From positions 1-45,794 of the forward strand of contig SXLG01000123.1 in assembly GCA_005777805.1 (NCBI GenBank): DNA of 45,794 nucleotides. The letters are read 5' to 3'. Source of the DNA: Pseudomonadota bacterium. Lineage in GTDB: Bacteria > Desulfobacterota > Binatia > UBA12015. The notes below the pieces were generated by a model that saw only the letters and a list, made by a program, of their open reading frames with translations, was not told the DNA's origin and made no database searches. Position 1 is the stretch's first letter. Every line of letters starts with the position of its first letter. The translations under genes were made by a program, and so were the position numbers. This document shows, piece after piece, positions 10,581-41,264 of this stretch.

Positions 10581-11975
10581 GTGTCGGCGGTGGAAGCGGG
10601 CCTCTGGATACTCGGGGCGGCCACGGTCTCCGGGGTTCCGCTCCGAGCCTGGATCGTTCGCGGCCGGCCCTACGCGCTCTTCACCCTGATCCTGCTGCTT
10701 CTCTCCGTGCCTGCGGCATTGGTGGTGCACGGGCGTCTCCGCGGTGCCCTCCCGCCGGCCGCCGTACCCTGGCTCGACGCAACCTTCGTCTGGGGCCTGG
10801 TCGCAACGACGGCGCATCTCCTCGCACTGGCCGAACCGCGGCTGCGGCACGCACCCTTCCGACTTGGCATCAGCGTGCCGGCGATGGTGTTCCTCTCGAC
10901 CGGGGCTCTCTCGCTGGTCTGGCTTGCGCTGCTGGCACCACTCGGGGCCATCGTTGCTCTCAGAGCGGGCGGCCTCGCCGGCCTGCCCGGCTGGCTCTAC
11001 GCCGTGCCGCCCGTCGTCGCCCTGGCCTCGGTCGCCACCTCGTCCCGCCCGCGCCGCGAGACCGTCCGCTTCTCTCTGATCGATCCGGACGACCACGCGC
11101 CAAAGGCCACGATCTCTCCGTTGGCCACAGTCAATAGTCAACACATAAATGAACCGGGGGGCCCGGATGCCCGCGCCGAGGACTTCGAACTCCGACGACT
11201 CGCGGTGACGCGGCGGCGCTCGTACGCCCCCCGGCCCCGGCGCGAGGACGCGCGCGCCGCGGGGCGGCGGATTCTTCACGTCGTGCAGATCACCGACCCG
11301 CACCTCGGGCCCTGGCAGCCGGTGCACAAGCTGGCGCGGGAGATCGAACGACTCTGCGCTGGCGAGCCCGACCTCGTGCTGGTGACGGGCGACCTCCTGA
11401 CGATGGAAAGTGGCGGCACCCCCGGCGCACTCGCCGAAGCGGTGGCCCCGCTGCGCCGGCTCACGGGTAGAACCTTTGCTGTCCTCGGCAACCACGATCA
11501 CGAGGCGCTGGACGAAGTTCGCGCCGGCCTGCATGCAGCCGGCGTGCGACTGCTCGTGGACGAGGAGGTAAGGGTCGAGACGCGACTCGGACCGATCCGC
11601 ATCCTTGGCGCCGACTGGCGCGGACGTAAACGGGCCGAGCATCTCCAGAATTTATTTGCGTCATGGCCACGCCGTGACGCTCTGCCGCGCCTGCTCCTGC
11701 TGCACGACCCCAGCGCCTTCCGACTCGTGCCTCCGGGTGCGGCAGACCTGACCTTCTCCGGCCACACCCATGGCGGCCAGCTCGGCCTCGTCTCGCTCGG
11801 TCTCGACTGGACCGTGCTCAGCCGAACACGCTGGCCCGACCACGGACTTTTCGCGAGTGGTCCGAACCGCCTCTACGTTCACCGCGGCACCGGCCACTAC
11901 GGCTTTCCGCTGCGCATCGGCGTGCCGGGCGAGGCCTCGCGGCTCGAGATCGAGCTGCCACCCCGCACGGAGTGA
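10581..11975 (+). CDS. Membrane-anchored metallophosphoesterase (YkuE/YaeI-like)
   Basis: A calcineurin-like phosphoesterase with an N-terminal membrane domain. About four hydrophobic segments lie in the first 160 residues (ALFTLILLLLSVPAALVV, LVWLALLAPLGAIVAL and others). The metal-binding motifs are then in order: ITDPHLG, LVTGDLL, VLGNHDH, LLLHDP and SGHTHGGQLG. This matches the membrane-linked phosphodiesterases that act on lipid-linked or cell-surface phosphoesters; the substrate here is unknown. The GTG at 10581 is chosen because upstream in-frame residues are basic and unlike the family; the ORF-track ATG at 10458 is possible. It stands alone between two repeat-bearing gaps. A short GGGAC...GTCCC hairpin follows the stop. 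Confidence 0.85.
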   Translation: MSAVEAGLWILGAATVSGVPLRAWIVRGRPYALFTLILLLLSVPAALVVHGRLRGALPPAAVPWLDATFVWGLVATTAHLLALAEPRLRHAPFRLGISVPAMVFLSTGALSLVWLALLAPLGAIVALRAGGLAGLPGWLYAVPPVVALASVATSSRPRRETVRFSLIDPDDHAPKATISPLATVNSQHINEPGGPDARAEDFELRRLAVTRRRSYAPRPRREDARAAGRRILHVVQITDPHLGPWQPVHKLAREIERLCAGEPDLVLVTGDLLTMESGGTPGALAEAVAPLRRLTGRTFAVLGNHDHEALDEVRAGLHAAGVRLLVDEEVRVETRLGPIRILGADWRGRKRAEHLQNLFASWPRRDALPRLLLLHDPSAFRLVPPGAADLTFSGHTHGGQLGLVSLGLDWTVLSRTRWPDHGLFASGPNRLYVHRGTGHYGFPLRIGVPGEASRLEIELPPRTE

Positions 11976-12561
11976 GCCGGGGACGGCGTCCCGCGCGGAT
12001 CTGACGAGACGACAACGGCACTCGGCCGCACCGATCCAGGCGAGGCTGCACTCGCGCCTGACCGGAGGTCTGCCCGGGCCACCGGAGCGCCGCGCCCGGG
12101 CGCGATCGCGACGCCTACAGCGCGGGCCGAAACAGATTGGCGAAGCCGCGCGCGCTGGCGGCGAGATCGCGACGCCTGCCCGAACGACAAGCCGCTGCCT
12201 CGTCAGTGGTGCGACTGGAAATCGCGCACCGACGGCGAGGCCCGAGACTGCGCCGGGCGCTTGTGCTCGGCCCGGCGTAGCCGCGCCGAGCACGAGTCCT
12301 TCGGGCTCGCGGTTCCCGGCCGCGACAGCCCGCGGAACACACTCGCGACAGCGGCCACTTCGGCCTTGTGGTCCCCGCCGTGGTTTCTGCGGCAGAGCGC
12401 GCGGTTTTCTCGACGAGCCATGCGGCCCGTGCCGCTGCGGTCCCCGGCGTGGGTACTGGCGCAGAGCGCGCGAGAGCCCGGATCCCAGTGCCGCACCCGG
12501 CAGGCCAGAACGCCGCGAACTGCATTGCGGGTCCGGAGGGGTGCCGTTACCGTTCCGCGCC
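11976..12561. other. Gene-free stretch with a repeat pair and an inverted repeat
   Basis: No convincing gene in these 586 bp; the long ORF-track frames across it are arginine-rich and lack family features. It contains a 9-bp perfect inverted repeat, GTGCTCGGC at 12263 and GCCGAGCAC at 12285 with a 13-nt loop. A direct repeat pair lies at 12368-12472. The promoter of the downstream ferredoxin gene must lie here, but I cannot identify it. Confidence 0.5.
12368..12472. repeat. Imperfect 36-bp direct repeat pair, period 69 bp
   Basis: The segment gtggtccccgccgtggtttc at 12368 recurs as gcggtccccggcgtgggtac at 12437, and both continue into a near-identical gcagagcgcgcg. About 31 of 36 positions agree. 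A weaker third copy may precede it near 12310 (gcggttcccggccgcg). Confidence 0.75.
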
Positions 12562-13377
12562 ATGGCCACGATGATCACCGACGAGTGCATCAATTGCGGC
12601 GCCTGCGAGCCCGAATGCCCGAACACGGCGATCTATCAGGGCGGCGTCGAATACGAAGCGCTCGACGGCACCAAGCACCCCCCACTCTCGAACGACTTCT
12701 TCTACATCGTGCCCGAGAAGTGCACGGAGTGCGTCGGCTTCTTCGATCAGGAGGCATGTGCGGCGGTCTGCCCGGTTGATTGCTGCGTGCCGGATCCGGG
12801 CCGAGTCGAGAGCGAGGAACTGCTGGCGGTGCGGGCGAAGGAGATTCACCCGGACAAGGACTTCTCGGGCGAGCTGCCCTCGCGCTTCCGCAAACCGGCG
12901 GCCGGCGACGGCGCCGTGGCCGCATCGGTCGCTGCGGCGAACGCTTCTGCGGACCCGGCTCGCGTCGGAGCGGCCGTCTACGCGACTGCGGTTGTCTCAC
13001 CCGAGGACGCGCTCGCCGCAAAGTTCCCGCTCGAGGAAGACTGGGAAGTCCCGCTGACCTGCTTCCGCTGCAGCGGTCGCTTCGCCGTGCCGCTGCTCTA
13101 TCTCAAGCCGGGCACGGTCCTGCACTGCCCGCACTGCGGTGGCTCGTACGTCCCCGACACTCGCCTCTACCAGAGCGTCCAGCGCAAAGTATCGGCTTTC
13201 TTCGAGACCTGGGGCCGGAGCTTCGACGAGCTGCGAACTCGCCGGCGGCGCGAACTCGAGCGCTTCGAGAACCAGCTCGTCGACGCCTTCGAACAAGCGC
13301 GCACCGAAGTCGAGAAGCTCACCGCCACCCCCGAGCTGCCGGGCGCTCCGGCGCGCCAGCGTGGCCTGTTTGGCTGA
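12562..13377 (+). CDS. Ferredoxin (two 4Fe-4S clusters) fused to a zinc-ribbon and helical tail
   Basis: A 271-residue protein. The first about 80 residues form a YfhL/Chromatium-type ferredoxin: ITDECINCGACEPECPNTAI gives one 4Fe-4S site. CTECVGFFDQEACAAVCPVDC gives the second, with the loop insertion between cysteines that defines this subgroup. A low-complexity alanine-rich linker follows. A separate CFRCSGRF...CPHCGGSY zinc ribbon lies around residues 170-200, then a charged helical tail. Stand-alone family members are about 80-110 residues, so the C-terminal 150 residues are an addition. It probably transfers low-potential electrons in the cytoplasm; the zinc ribbon may dock it to a partner. 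The ATG at 12562 is three codons before an alternative ATG. A 14-bp palindrome overlaps the stop. Confidence 0.85.
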   Translation: MATMITDECINCGACEPECPNTAIYQGGVEYEALDGTKHPPLSNDFFYIVPEKCTECVGFFDQEACAAVCPVDCCVPDPGRVESEELLAVRAKEIHPDKDFSGELPSRFRKPAAGDGAVAASVAAANASADPARVGAAVYATAVVSPEDALAAKFPLEEDWEVPLTCFRCSGRFAVPLLYLKPGTVLHCPHCGGSYVPDTRLYQSVQRKVSAFFETWGRSFDELRTRRRRELERFENQLVDAFEQARTEVEKLTATPELPGAPARQRGLFG

Positions 13378-34906: not shown

Positions 34907-36807
34907 CCGGCGAGCCCCCCCGTGGCCACCGGCCCCTGCCGGCCCGTGGGAACGGTGCCCGGCCCGCGCGCTCGCGCGGCATCGCGTGGAGGAACCGGAG
35001 CCCCCGACGAATCCCTGCCCTCCGCAGAAGCCGTCCCCAAGCGCAGCACCTTCCTGCCGCGCATCCGCTCCGGAGTCGCGACGAGCAGAACATGGCGGCC
35101 GTTGTCGATCCGCTCGACGAAGACGAACCCGGCTCGCTCGAGCTCGGCGATCCGGCTGGGCCGCGTCGCCACCACCAGCGGCCGGCGCGCAGCGAGCGCG
35201 ACGATCGCTTCGCGCGACGATTCCCGACGGACCTCGCGATGCGTGTACCAGGAGAGTGAGGCCGGCTCGATCCTGTAGGCGACCAGTTCGCCGGCCGACG
35301 CCTGCTCCAGAATCCAGCCCGCAAGACCGGCATCACTCGCGACACGGGCGACACCGTGTCCCACACCGAAAACGGCGACCACGAGCAACACCGCACTGCC
35401 CGCGACGAGTCGGATCAAGGTTGCGCGAGCCGGGCCACGGTCACGCAGGAGGACCAGGGCAACGATCAGCACCGGCAGCGCCCAGATCGAAAGCGCCTGC
35501 TCACGCGGCAGGGCGAGGACGATCACCACCGGTGCCGTGAGCGCGAGCAAACCGAGCACCGCACCCCAGAGCCGCGCCGCCGCCCGCAGACGCGGGGCGG
35601 CGCGCTCGCCGGCGCGCAGAAGCCGCGCGCCGAGCCAGAAGGCGAGCGGGCCGAATGCTGGCAGGACATAGGTGGCAAGCTTCGACTCGCTCGCGGTGAA
35701 GAAGAGCACGATGGTCCCAGCCCAGAGGAGGAGGTCGCGCTCGTCGGCGGCTCGCCCCGGCTCGTCCGCCCGCGGGGCCGAGAGCGCCGCCGGTAGACAC
35801 AGCGACCAGGGCAGAAAGCACGCGACAAGCGCCCAAAAAAGAAAGAAAGGCCCCTCGTGATGGTCGAATCCGGCCGAGGCGAAGCGCTGCACGTTGTGCT
35901 GGACGAGAAAGTTCCACGGATAGGCCGGATCGGCTACCGCCGCCGCCACGAGCCAGCCCCCGAACACCGCGGCAACAAGTGCCGCACCCGCGAGCGGACG
36001 GGCCGCACGGACAGCCTCGAGCAGACGCCCGCGCGTCGCCGCCGCGGCCGCCACGACGGCGAGCGGCAGCACGACGGCGACGGGCCCCTTGATCAGCGTT
36101 CCGAGAGCCATCGCGAGCCACGCCATGAGCGCCATGCGCCGAGCGGCATCCCGGCCCGTGGCCCGAGCCGCCGCATGGGCCGCCGCGGACCATGCCGGCG
36201 CCCCGAGCGTCGACGCTGGGGACTCCGCTTCCACAAGCCGTCCGCTCGGTTCGATCTCCACCGGCCCCGCGCCTACCGCCTGCGCCGCGCCTGGGGGCTC
36301 CGCGACCTCATCCGGCAGCCGCTCGAGGAAGACGAGCCAGGCGAGCGTGGCCGCAGTCATGAATAAAGTCAGGCTCGCGTCGAGATTGCAAAAGCGGCCA
36401 AGCGCCACCACCTCCGGGGCCGTCAGAAAGATCGCGGCGCCCAGCGCTGCGGCTGGCGGTCCGAATCGACCGAGCGCCCAGCGATGGAGGAGAACGACAG
36501 TCGCGATGGTCGCCAGCGCCGAGGGCAGTCTGGCGGCGGCCTCGGGGGCGAGCGGCAGAACCCCGGCCATCTGGACCAACCAGTAGAAGCCGGTCGGTTT
36601 GTGGTCATAGGGTTCGCCATAGATTTTGGGGCGGATCCAATCGCCCCGCTCCACCATGCCGCGCGCGATGCCGGCGTGCCGTCCCTCGTCAGGATCGAGG
36701 AGCGGCGTCGCCGAGAGGCGCCCGAGCAGCAGGGCTGCGGCGAGGGCCCCCACGGCCAGTGTCTGCCCGTACGCAGCTCTCCGTCTCCCCACGCTCCCTC
36801 GATCCAT
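34903..36807 (-). CDS. ArnT/GT39-like glycosyltransferase with a long inserted loop
   Basis: A 634-residue transferase of the same class. The N-terminal loop reads LLDPDEGRHAGIARGMVERGDWIRPKIYGEPYDHKPTGFYWL, and the helices follow as usual. An extra hydrophilic stretch of about 55 residues (ERLPDEVAEPPGAAQAVGAG and onward) lies between two helices around residue 190, absent from the sister gene. The C-terminal region holds a periplasmic domain. The ATG at 36807 was chosen because it gives a short n-region before the first helix; the 775-residue ORF-track frame extends into the divergent gene. It heads the three-gene operon and is divergent, 136 bp away, from the nitronate monooxygenase gene. 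Confidence 0.85.
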   Translation of the reverse strand: MDRGSVGRRRAAYGQTLAVGALAAALLLGRLSATPLLDPDEGRHAGIARGMVERGDWIRPKIYGEPYDHKPTGFYWLVQMAGVLPLAPEAAARLPSALATIATVVLLHRWALGRFGPPAAALGAAIFLTAPEVVALGRFCNLDASLTLFMTAATLAWLVFLERLPDEVAEPPGAAQAVGAGPVEIEPSGRLVEAESPASTLGAPAWSAAAHAAARATGRDAARRMALMAWLAMALGTLIKGPVAVVLPLAVVAAAAATRGRLLEAVRAARPLAGAALVAAVFGGWLVAAAVADPAYPWNFLVQHNVQRFASAGFDHHEGPFFLFWALVACFLPWSLCLPAALSAPRADEPGRAADERDLLLWAGTIVLFFTASESKLATYVLPAFGPLAFWLGARLLRAGERAAPRLRAAARLWGAVLGLLALTAPVVIVLALPREQALSIWALPVLIVALVLLRDRGPARATLIRLVAGSAVLLVVAVFGVGHGVARVASDAGLAGWILEQASAGELVAYRIEPASLSWYTHREVRRESSREAIVALAARRPLVVATRPSRIAELERAGFVFVERIDNGRHVLLVATPERMRGRKVLRLGTASAEGRDSSGAPVPPRDAARARGPGTVPTGRQGPVATGGLAG

Positions 36808-36943
36808 CGCCACAGGCGCCACCACCGCGCGGCAGGCTACCAGCGTTTTGGCCCGCGGTCGCGCCGCACGGGCTTGCCGGTCTCCTCTCCGACCCCGAAC
36901 ATCAGCCGGCCCGCGCTCCGCGGTGCCCGACGGGGGTTTCGCC

Positions 36944-37906
36944 ATGACACTACGTACGCCCATCTGTGACCTCTTCGACATCGAGGTCCCGATCTTTCTC
37001 GCCGGCATGGGCCAGGTCGCCTTCGCCGATCTCTGTGCCGCGGTCTCGGAAGCGGGCGGCTTCGGTACGCTCGGCATGGCCGGCTCGTCCAAGGACGCAA
37101 TTCGCGACGAGATGCGGCGCGTCCGACAGAAAACCGACAAGCCCTTCGGCGTCGATCTGCTCGCCGCTCTGCCCGAACAGGTGCTCGAGGCGATCGACAT
37201 CATCATCGACGAAGGGGCGAGCGCCTTCATCGCCGGACTCGGCGTGCCGGGGCCGGTGATCGAGAGATGTCACCGCAAGAACGTCAAGGTGATGGTCGTG
37301 TGCGGCAAGGTCGAGCACGCACGGCGCGCGGAGGAGGCGGGCTGCGACGGCGTCGTGGCGCAGGGCACCGAGGCCGGCGGTCACACCGGACGCATCGCGA
37401 CCATGGCGCTGGTGCCGCAAACGGTCGATGCGGTCACGATCCCGGTGCTCGCGGCAGGCTCGATCGTCGACGGCCGCGGCATCGCCGCCGCACTCGCTTT
37501 CGGCGCCCAGGGCGTGTGGATGGGCACGCGCTTCATCGCCACCGACGAGGCCCGCGCCGCGCACGCCTTCAAGGATAAAATCATCGCCTCGGACGGCGCC
37601 GATACGACCATCACTCGCTGCTATTCGGGCAAGCCGATGCGCGTCGTGACCAACCCCTTCGTCGAGGAGTGGGAGCGCGACCCGAGTCGCATCAAGCCTT
37701 TCCCGCAGCAGCTCGTCGACAGCGCCAGTGCCGGTGTCATGGCCTATGCCCACGACGCCCACACCGACGCCGAGCGCACCTGCATGCCGGCCGGTCAGGG
37801 GATTGGCGGCATCGCCGACATCGTGCCCGTGCGCGAGCTGATGGCCCGGCTGCTCGCGGAAACCGATCAGGTGCTTGGACGCCTCGGACGATTGGCCAGC
37901 GCGTAG
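36944..37906 (+). CDS. Nitronate monooxygenase (2-nitropropane dioxygenase family)
   Basis: A 320-residue FMN-binding TIM-barrel protein. It starts MTLRTPICDLFDIEVPIFLAGM, and the FMN-phosphate and ring contacts are visible in GFGTLGMAGSS, FGVDLL, VVAQGTEAGGHTGR, PVLAAGSIVDGRG and GAQGVWMGTRF. The AGGHTG His is the usual catalytic base. The family oxidises alkyl nitronates to carbonyl compounds and nitrite and often acts in detoxification; distant members are reductases of enoyl-ACP type. The ATG at 36944 has weak SD (GGGGGTTTCGCC). It is divergent from the glycosyltransferase operon; the 421-bp region beyond contains a desaturase remnant. Confidence 0.9.
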   Translation: MTLRTPICDLFDIEVPIFLAGMGQVAFADLCAAVSEAGGFGTLGMAGSSKDAIRDEMRRVRQKTDKPFGVDLLAALPEQVLEAIDIIIDEGASAFIAGLGVPGPVIERCHRKNVKVMVVCGKVEHARRAEEAGCDGVVAQGTEAGGHTGRIATMALVPQTVDAVTIPVLAAGSIVDGRGIAAALAFGAQGVWMGTRFIATDEARAAHAFKDKIIASDGADTTITRCYSGKPMRVVTNPFVEEWERDPSRIKPFPQQLVDSASAGVMAYAHDAHTDAERTCMPAGQGIGGIADIVPVRELMARLLAETDQVLGRLGRLASA

Positions 37907-38327
37907 CGCGCCGCTCACGCGGCATCGGCCTTGCTTCGTCTGGGCGACCCCTGGCAATCGTGTGAACCGCCGCCACGGCGGCGAGGAGGCTTGATTGGAT
38001 TCTATTCGATGGCCGGGAGGCCCTGTGGGCCCTCCTCTGGGCTTTCGTCTGCGCGCAGGTCGCGCTTCTCGCAACGCTGGTGGGAGATCGACCTCGGCTG
38101 GTGGACGATCTCGCTGCTGCGCCGACTCGGGCTGGCACGGGTGACACCCTCGGCCGGTCTCGCCTAGCCGACCGCCGAAGACAACGAAGCTGACCAAGAA
38201 ACACCGCAGATAGAGAACTTCCAAGGCTGGCTCGCGCCCAGGCGGAATTTGGCGTTCGCGCAGGGCCGGCGGTCTCCGCCGAGACGCCGTGCTCGCGCCG
38301 TGGTGCTGCGGGAGATCGGCACGTGGC
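37907..38327. other. Intergenic region carrying a gene relic
   Basis: The 421 bp between convergent nitronate monooxygenase and acetyltransferase genes hold only the desaturase-like fragment listed separately. A GGAGG...CCTCC inverted repeat around 38013-38036 could be a hairpin. No intact gene is seen. Confidence 0.5.
38039..38167 (+). pseudogene. Remnant of an acyl-CoA (delta-9) desaturase C-terminus
   Basis: In plus frame 38039-38167, SSARRSRFSQRWWEIDLGWW followed by TISLLRRLGLARVTP closely follows the C-terminal pattern of bacterial acyl-CoA desaturases (SAR..F..WWEID..W..I..L..LGL). That pattern lies just after the last His box in intact enzymes. The stop TAG at 38165 is where a natural end would be. 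Everything upstream (the His boxes and membrane helices) is missing, and the preceding 110 bp do not continue the homology. This is a truncated, presumably non-functional relic. Confidence 0.6.
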
Positions 38328-39047
38328 TCAGTCGCGGTGCGTGAGTCGGGAGCGCAGCCAGCCGCGCCAGGTGTTGTCGCGCAAGGCCAGGTAGAGCAGG
38401 TAGCGGTGGCGCGCTGCGATCTCGGCGGGGGGCGCATCGTGGAGTGCCGCCATCGAACGAAACTCCGCCCCGGTCTCGATCTCGCGCACGACACGCGCCG
38501 GATTGCCGGCGACGATCACGCCCGGCGGGACGTCGCGCGTCACGACCGCACGCGCCCCCACCACGCTGTTGTCGCCGATCGTCACCCCCTTGCCCACCAT
38601 CGCACCGTCGCCCACCCAGACGTTGCGCCCGAGCACGATCGGCGCGGTGCGGCCAACCTCCTGGGTCCGATCGACGATATCGTGCCAGTCGGCGTCGGTG
38701 AGATAGGCCCCGCTCGCGAGCATCGTACCGTCTCCAATTTCGATGCGTGTCGCGGAGGAGAGGCGCACCCCGGGCGAGACCAGGCAATGATCGCCCAGTG
38801 TGATCTGCCCCTGGTGGCGGGCGTCGCTCCAGGTCTGGAACGAGACCTCACGGCCACGGGCGGCAACGATGTAGGCGAAGCGGCCGATCCGGATACGCGC
38901 GCCGTGGATCTCGACCCGCCACGGCCGGACCACGACCGAGCCCTCGCCGAGCGCGTCGAGCTGCGGCGCGAGCACGTGCCGCGTCCAGGCCTCGCGCACG
39001 AGCACACCCGCGTGAGCCAGGCGATAGGGTCGGTGGTCTCGTCTCAC
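38328..39047 (-). CDS. Hexapeptide-repeat (left-handed beta-helix) acetyltransferase
   Basis: A 239-residue acyltransferase. After a preceding region, the hexapeptide repeats run through ITLGDHCLVSPGVRLSSAT, IEIGDGTMLASGAYLTDADW, VLGRNVWVGDGAMVGKGVTIGDNSVVGARAVV. The canonical exit is RDVPPGVIVAGNPARVVRE. The His in DADWHDI is placed like the catalytic His of maltose/galactoside acetyltransferases. The acceptor is unknown; a sugar or lipid-sugar is likely. The start is a GTG at 39047, giving MRRDHRPYRL after decoding; no ATG precedes it in frame nearby. It is convergent with nitronate monooxygenase and divergent from the MASE1-type kinase. Confidence 0.85.
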   Translation of the reverse strand: MRRDHRPYRLAHAGVLVREAWTRHVLAPQLDALGEGSVVVRPWRVEIHGARIRIGRFAYIVAARGREVSFQTWSDARHQGQITLGDHCLVSPGVRLSSATRIEIGDGTMLASGAYLTDADWHDIVDRTQEVGRTAPIVLGRNVWVGDGAMVGKGVTIGDNSVVGARAVVTRDVPPGVIVAGNPARVVREIETGAEFRSMAALHDAPPAEIAARHRYLLYLALRDNTWRGWLRSRLTHRD

Positions 39048-39431
39048 CTCGTGATCCCGCAGGCCCGGGCGCGGGGTTCACCGGCCCGGTGCGAGCTATA
39101 GGCCACCCCGGTGCTGCGGTCGAGCCATCGGCGCCCCCCTCCAGGTCAGATTTGCCCACCGGACGGCAGCATGACGACCGTTCGCAACGCGGCCGCGGCT
39201 CAAGCCCGCCGCGCCCGGGATCGCTGGCAACAGAGGCCGGTCAAACTCACCGCGAGAGTCCTGCCGACCGACAACTCGACCGCCAGATTTCGACAGAGGA
39301 TTCGTCCGCTCCGGGCTTCGGACAGCCCGCGCGCGCCAAGAGCCGGCTCCATGGCCCTCCACAAGTACTGGTCTTTGGACGCGGCTGTTGACATGATACC
39401 CGCGGAACAGCGGGTAGCCGGAAGATCATAC
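39048..39431. promoter_or_regulatory. Divergent region upstream of the sensor kinase
   Basis: The 384 bp separate the acetyltransferase from the kinase. A TTGACA lies at 39388-39393 and a perfect 7-bp hairpin TACCCGC-ggaaca-GCGGGTA at 39397-39416. No matching -10 is at normal distance from the TTGACA. A TATAGG at about 39096 might serve the other direction. The frame open across the region is in a noticeably less GC-rich stretch from 39420 onward, so I do not count it as coding. Confidence 0.35.
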
Positions 39432-41264
39432 GTGTCGAATCCCCCATCGAAATCAAGCTTAACGACGCACCTCGGCTCTCGGCCGAGGGCGCTCGCTCTC
39501 CCGGCCGTGCCCGGCGTCCTCACCGGGCTGCGGCTCATCACGGCCAACATGCTGCTCGCGGCAGGATGGTTCGTGCTTGCCATCGCGACCGCGCCACCGG
39601 CCGCGCCTCGGACCTCGGTCGCGCTGATCTACCTCTCACCCGGTCTCGGTCTCGGCTGCGTACTGGCCTTCGGACGCCAGCTCGGGCCAGGCATCGCGCT
39701 CGGGGCGCTGGTCACGGGCATGTGGCGCGAGATGCCGCTCGCGTGGCTGGCGATGGTCACGCTCGCAGCACCGCTACAAGCTCTCGTCTGCGCCCGACTG
39801 CTGCGCGCCGAGCGGCCCTTCGCTCACATCTCGACAACAGCGTCGGCGCTTCGTTTCTTTTTGGTGACGTTGCTGCCGGCCCCACTGATCGTGCTGATCC
39901 CGCTGCTTCCAATTGCGATCCTGGGGGGTTTGATGCCGGGGGCGGTGCCGCCCCAGGTGGCGACAGCCGTCAGTCCGGAAGTGGTGGTGGCGAGCTGGCT
40001 CGGATTGGCCTTCGGCCTGCAAATCGTTGCGCCGGCCGTACTGGTCCTGGCCGACCGGGACGAGCGCACACGCCTCTGGGAGACACCGTGGCGCACGGTC
40101 ACGGTCGCCGTCGTTGCGCCCGTCGTCGTGGGCCTGGCCCTGCTTGCGCCTGGCTTGACCCCCCTGACGCGCACGTTGGCCCTACTGCTGCCCGCCGCTG
40201 TGCTGGCCTTAGCCGCCCTGCAACTGCCCGCCAGCGGACTTGCGCTGACTTCGACCGTCCTCCTGGGCACGACCCTGATCGCCAGGGCGCAGAGCAGCAG
40301 CTTCCCGCCGGGCCTGCCCTTCGACGTCCTCGAGATCCTTGGCTTCTGGGCAGGGGCCACGTTCTGCGTCCTGAGCCTCACCATGGTTGCGATCTTCGCG
40401 GAGCGCGAATCCTTGCAGCACAAGATGGACGACGAGCGGCGGCTGACCCTTGCTCAGCTCGCCCGTCGTGCCGAGTTCTTGGCGGTCCTGAGCCACGAGC
40501 TGCGCACGCCGCTCAATTCGGTACTGCTCGCAGTCGATCTGCTGATCGAGAGCACGCTCGACGCCGAACAACGCGATCTTGCCGATACGGTCGCACGCGC
40601 GGGGGACTCGTTGCGGGCGCTGATCGACGACAGCCTAGCCCTGTCGCGCGCCGAGAACCGGCGGGTCGAGATCCATTCGCGCCCGACTTTGCTGCACGAG
40701 TTGCTGGAGGAGGTCGCCGTGGTCCTCGGCGAGCCCGCCCGACGCCGTGGCCTCACCATCCGGCTGGACGCAGCCCCCGACATCCCTCAGCCCTTCGCGA
40801 CGGATCCCAACCTGGTGCGCCGCGTGCTGCTGAACCTGGTCGGCAACGCGGTCAAGTATGGCAGCCCCGGCGAAATCCTGCTGCAGGCCCGCACCGAACC
40901 GGTTGCGCCCCCACATGCCAAGGCAGATTCAGACGGGGCGACAGGCGCCACGATCCGGAGCCTCCGAAATCTTGCGTCGCCGAGCCGCGTCGGGATACGG
41001 CTCGAGATCGCCGACGACGGGCCGGGAATCCCGGCCGAGCGGCAGGCCGACATCTTTGAACCCTTCGCGCGACTCGAAGAGGAGAAGCTCGACCATACCC
41101 TCGTGCCCGGGGGTGGGACCGGTCTCGGCCTCGCGATCACCCGCGAGCTGGTGCACCACCTGGGCGGCCAGATCGGGGTCCGTGACCGAGACCACCAACC
41201 CGGCACTGTTTTTTGGGTGGTCCTGCCCCCGCGGCCGGACGACACGAACGCCCCGGGCGCCTGA
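39432..41264 (+). CDS. MASE1-like membrane sensor histidine kinase
   Basis: A protein of about 610 residues. The N-terminal about 300 residues contain eight or so transmembrane helices of MASE1-type (SVALIYLSPGLGLGCVLAFG, GPGIALGALVTGM). The cytoplasmic kinase follows: H-box EFLAVLSHELRTPLNSVLLAVDLL, N-box NLVRRVLLNLVGNAVKYG, then IADDGPGIPAERQ, GTGLGLAITRELV. No receiver domain or partner regulator is adjacent, so it is an orphan. I choose the GTG at 39432, preceded by CGGAAG; several upstream ATGs in the ORF track would add a basic tail without family resemblance. It converges on the M3 peptidase gene; the short gap between is AT-rich in part. Confidence 0.85.
   Translation: MSNPPSKSSLTTHLGSRPRALALPAVPGVLTGLRLITANMLLAAGWFVLAIATAPPAAPRTSVALIYLSPGLGLGCVLAFGRQLGPGIALGALVTGMWREMPLAWLAMVTLAAPLQALVCARLLRAERPFAHISTTASALRFFLVTLLPAPLIVLIPLLPIAILGGLMPGAVPPQVATAVSPEVVVASWLGLAFGLQIVAPAVLVLADRDERTRLWETPWRTVTVAVVAPVVVGLALLAPGLTPLTRTLALLLPAAVLALAALQLPASGLALTSTVLLGTTLIARAQSSSFPPGLPFDVLEILGFWAGATFCVLSLTMVAIFAERESLQHKMDDERRLTLAQLARRAEFLAVLSHELRTPLNSVLLAVDLLIESTLDAEQRDLADTVARAGDSLRALIDDSLALSRAENRRVEIHSRPTLLHELLEEVAVVLGEPARRRGLTIRLDAAPDIPQPFATDPNLVRRVLLNLVGNAVKYGSPGEILLQARTEPVAPPHAKADSDGATGATIRSLRNLASPSRVGIRLEIADDGPGIPAERQADIFEPFARLEEEKLDHTLVPGGGTGLGLAITRELVHHLGGQIGVRDRDHQPGTVFWVVLPPRPDDTNAPGA

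Follow-up and report, generated by a model that had tools for sequence, protein, structure and literature searches.

With a probability of about 93%, what lies beside an acetyltransferase gene in the DNA analysed here (the window, a 45,794-nucleotide stretch of contig SXLG01000123.1) is an ordinary pseudogene: a short DesA-like membrane desaturase gene of ~247 codons, killed by a single internal deletion of ~563 bp in this genome's lineage. In the course of events that seems best to fit, that one deletion would have taken out approximately codons 26 to 213, and with them all three histidine boxes, leaving the first ~25 codons joined out of frame to the last ~34 at a microhomology of 3 bp. The start codon also appears altered, from ATG to AGG, at a time relative to the deletion that we infer only. 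Any product would presumably be dead, with loss of its activity, and the inactivation would be recent when set against the divergence from the congener. The features concerned are these.

36944..37906, forward strand: gene for a nitronate monooxygenase-family flavoprotein (PF03060, E 4.2e-70), given for context only
37987..38062, forward strand: N-terminal desaturase remnant, approximately codons 1-25 of the congener's 247, with AGG, not ATG, at the start position
38060..38062, forward strand: deletion joint, where TCG is common to both edges, 563 bp are gone and the reading frame shifts
38063..38167, forward strand: C-terminal desaturase remnant, the final 34 codons and the stop, in the frame of the first-pass annotation
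38328..39047, reverse strand: hexapeptide-repeat acetyltransferase gene (PF00132), the convergent neighbour kept in the congener, which anchors the position

With the desaturase protein of the congener as tblastn query against the 45.8-kb window, both remnants are recovered. Residues 213-247 align at 38060-38164 with 31 of 35 identical (89%, E 3.1e-16), and residues 2-32 align, in a different frame, at 37990-38082 with 74% identity over 31 amino acids (E 3.4e-10), the part of this second match past 38062 being C-terminal DNA that reads alike by chance. The C-terminal match scores 69.3 bits and the N-terminal one 51.2 bits; in 1000 shuffles of this region that preserved its dinucleotides, nothing scored higher than 26.2 bits. 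The first-pass annotation had seen the C-terminal frame (translation SRFSQRWWEIDLGWWTISLLRRLGLARVTPSAGLA, ending with TAG at 38165-38167) and had taken it for the end of an acyl-CoA desaturase of which the rest is missing. Its match to a desaturase C-terminus is borne out and was understated, since the similarity does not stop with the WWEID motif and spans SRFSQ to the natural stop, and since the N-terminal remnant at 37987-38062 went unnoticed; what is missing is thus 563 bp from inside the gene and not all that precedes the C-terminus. It is indeed a desaturase relic, but its relatives are short DesA-like proteins, and the choice between acyl-CoA and acyl-lipid substrates is not one that can be read from sequence.

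The C-terminal frame alone matches positions 211-240 of the 385 in the NCBIfam profile DesA_fam_desat (NF049918; E 1.1e-7, 31.4 bits). As the relic gave no match in Pfam and all its histidine boxes are deleted, it does not itself qualify as a membrane fatty acid desaturase (PF00487). The PDB matches of the fragment were designed TIM barrels having a short LRRLG stretch in common with it; these were taken as chance, and the structures do not recognise the fragment. A plasmid DNA search gave zero matches, Rfam none within 36000-40000, and in the literature on deletion pseudogenes nothing specific to the case was found.

Is there an intact gene at the same position in a relative? There is, in the single other genome of the genus compared (G001, Deltaproteobacteria bacterium isolate Bin_38_12), where contig C368 (VFKT01000103.1) has an intact 247-codon desaturase gene at 12240-12980 on the reverse strand beside the counterpart of the window's acetyltransferase gene (11446-12162, forward strand; 85% identical), the two genes converging just as they do in the window. 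The DNA match between window and congener is collinear from an ArnT-like glycosyltransferase gene (36316-36717) through the desaturase remnants, the acetyltransferase, a histidine kinase and an M3 peptidase, on to 45595. In a same-position search of GTDB genomes with the acetyltransferase, the congener was the only close relative returned. Its protein has what the relic has lost, scoring 64.2 bits against PF00487 (gathering score 29.7) and carrying three histidine boxes, HRGLAH at 35-40, HRKHH at 72-76 and HNNHH at 203-207. Against this orthologue the window thus has a 563-bp frameshifting deletion and a start-codon change, disabling lesions at the same genomic position such as define a deletion pseudogene.

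The first-pass annotation had placed the deletion between the nitronate monooxygenase and the acetyltransferase. That there was a deletion, and that the acetyltransferase flanks it, holds; the loss is nevertheless internal to one gene, and no monooxygenase homologue is present in the 11-kb neighbourhood of the congener, where the desaturase instead adjoins the ArnT-like glycosyltransferase gene. The monooxygenase is therefore a separate difference and not the flank of a larger lost interval. Whether it was gained in the window or lost in the congener, either way it is an event apart from the desaturase deletion. Its relatives at 68-72% are in one other member of the family and, beyond the family, elsewhere in the class, without the window's neighbours.

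The breakpoint can be read to within three bases. Ungapped DNA alignments to the congener have an offset of 36962 on the left and 36399 on the right, and the difference of 563 bp, no multiple of three, is 76% of the gene, with all three histidine boxes inside the missing part. Since the left alignment runs through CAGGTCG (38056-38062), the right one starts at TCGCGCTTCTCG and the two meet at TCG, the break is inside TCG 38060-38062; the corresponding congener edges are CAGGTCG on the left and CAGCTCG on the right. The joint might have been thought to lie in a long direct repeat, as TCGCGCTTCTCGCAACG in the window reads either as N-terminal VALLAT or as C-terminal SRFSQR. This was rejected: the left edge matches congener DNA only to TCG, so that the support extends to a minimum of 3 bp and no longer repeat in the ancestor is demonstrable. 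Such a joint would fit end joining, or slippage during replication, at homology that is there by chance. In having both ends kept, a change of frame, few common bases at the joint and an intact sister orthologue, the relic is like other bacterial pseudogenes whose interior was deleted between short direct repeats or at a microhomology, from which it has no notable difference.

Could the gap be of the assembler's making? The draft genome is fragmented (194 contigs, 70% completeness), and the comparison covers a single congener and, of the species itself, this one genome, so a misassembly, or a strain mixture, in which 563 bp of an intact gene were skipped deserves consideration. Yet the edges in the congener have just 3 bp in common (6 of 7 with one mismatch), far below the overlap that an assembler needs, and the joint is inside a long contig with conserved gene order. 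The start-codon change, moreover, is a second lesion independent of the deletion. As so short an overlap is too little to mislead an assembler, and as the start-codon change is independent, a real deletion is favoured and an artefact is very unlikely.

At the aligned start position ATG is present in all 7 relatives and AGG in the window, and from the previous stop to the N-terminal remnant there is no ATG, GTG or TTG in the frame of that remnant. Provided that the gene started at the conserved place, AGG would be its second lesion. A frame does remain open across the joint, from TTG 37991 or, in a longer 78-codon form, from 37931, and its C-terminal codons are conserved at the amino-acid level, as they would be if a small protein had come to reuse the desaturase C-terminus. 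But the first ~23 residues from TTG 37991 are old N-terminal DNA in the wrong frame, a search of 37850-38400 for promoter and terminator patterns gave none, and the same short frame was found in none of the related genomes searched. Selection that acted while the gene was still whole accounts for the C-terminal conservation. Reuse as a small protein is accordingly still less probable than an assembly fault, and scarcely to be credited.

How old, then, is the pseudogene? Over the 57 remaining codons, window versus congener, dN is 0.113 and dS 1.9, a ratio of 0.06, and for the C-terminal 34 codons alone the ratio is 0.097. For the intact acetyltransferase of the same genome pair it is 0.117, with a 5-95% range of 0.05-0.21 in samples of 57 codons. 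As the remnants keep the dN/dS of a functional gene, the loss looks recent on the scale of the divergence from the congener, for most of which they seem to have belonged to a gene under selection, an approximate reading with dS near saturation and only 57 codons.

The desaturase with which the family is most readily compared is DesA of Pseudomonas aeruginosa, whose substrates are the acyl chains of membrane phospholipids (PMC10634369). The congener protein aligns with the DesA family profile (NF049918) at positions 11-240 with E 1e-62 and its three histidine boxes follow one another as is usual, but its 212.5 bits there are short of the 400 bits set as the curated cut-off for the full 385 positions, and for this reason the label used here is 'DesA-like' and not DesA. 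Members of the clade are ~247-253 amino acids long and are without the last ~140 positions of the profile; of the window copy only the two ends remain. Separate loci that match only the last third of the profile (~260-380), the part missing from the family's short desaturases, are present in three genomes (G008:C258:6709-7059, G010:C48:31704-32051 and G002:C27:37636-37986).

In a search of 58 related genomes, most family members had DesA-like desaturases. Among 148 genomes of the class, the short clade was found only in this family: seven further genomes, all belonging to it (G002, G003, G004, G005, G008, G009 and G010), have proteins at 60-65% identity to that of the congener, and outside the family identities are ~41% or less. 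In other family members (L067, L069, L070, L071 and L072) the short desaturase is within a few kb of ArnT-like or related glycosyltransferases, which suggests a loosely conserved neighbourhood. In G008 the DesA-like gene (contig C1, ~30.2-30.9 kb, L014) shifts frame near residue 43-47, so that the N-terminal 43 residues match in a different frame from those that follow; either a second copy is in decay there or the shift is a sequencing error. Four genomes of the family (G006, G007, G011 and G013) have no match to the congener protein at E <= 1e-20, and G012 has a distant match only. Given the deletion in the window, the apparent frameshift in G008 and the lack of a close match in these five, it is a tentative thought, somewhat short of an even bet, that the short clade is dispensable and has repeatedly been lost in the family.

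For annotators there is a warning in this, as the 78-codon frame is not a gene. On contig C104 the genome has, apart from the fragment, a desaturase that is intact but only distantly related; a second close copy was not found in it, while four other sites score above the Pfam cut-off for an FA_desaturase domain, and because of these the genome need not have lost desaturation altogether. The case is a clean example of how an uncultured lineage of bacteria has recently lost a gene. There is nothing surprising about it, and it suggests that the species of the window has given up one membrane desaturase still kept by its sister.
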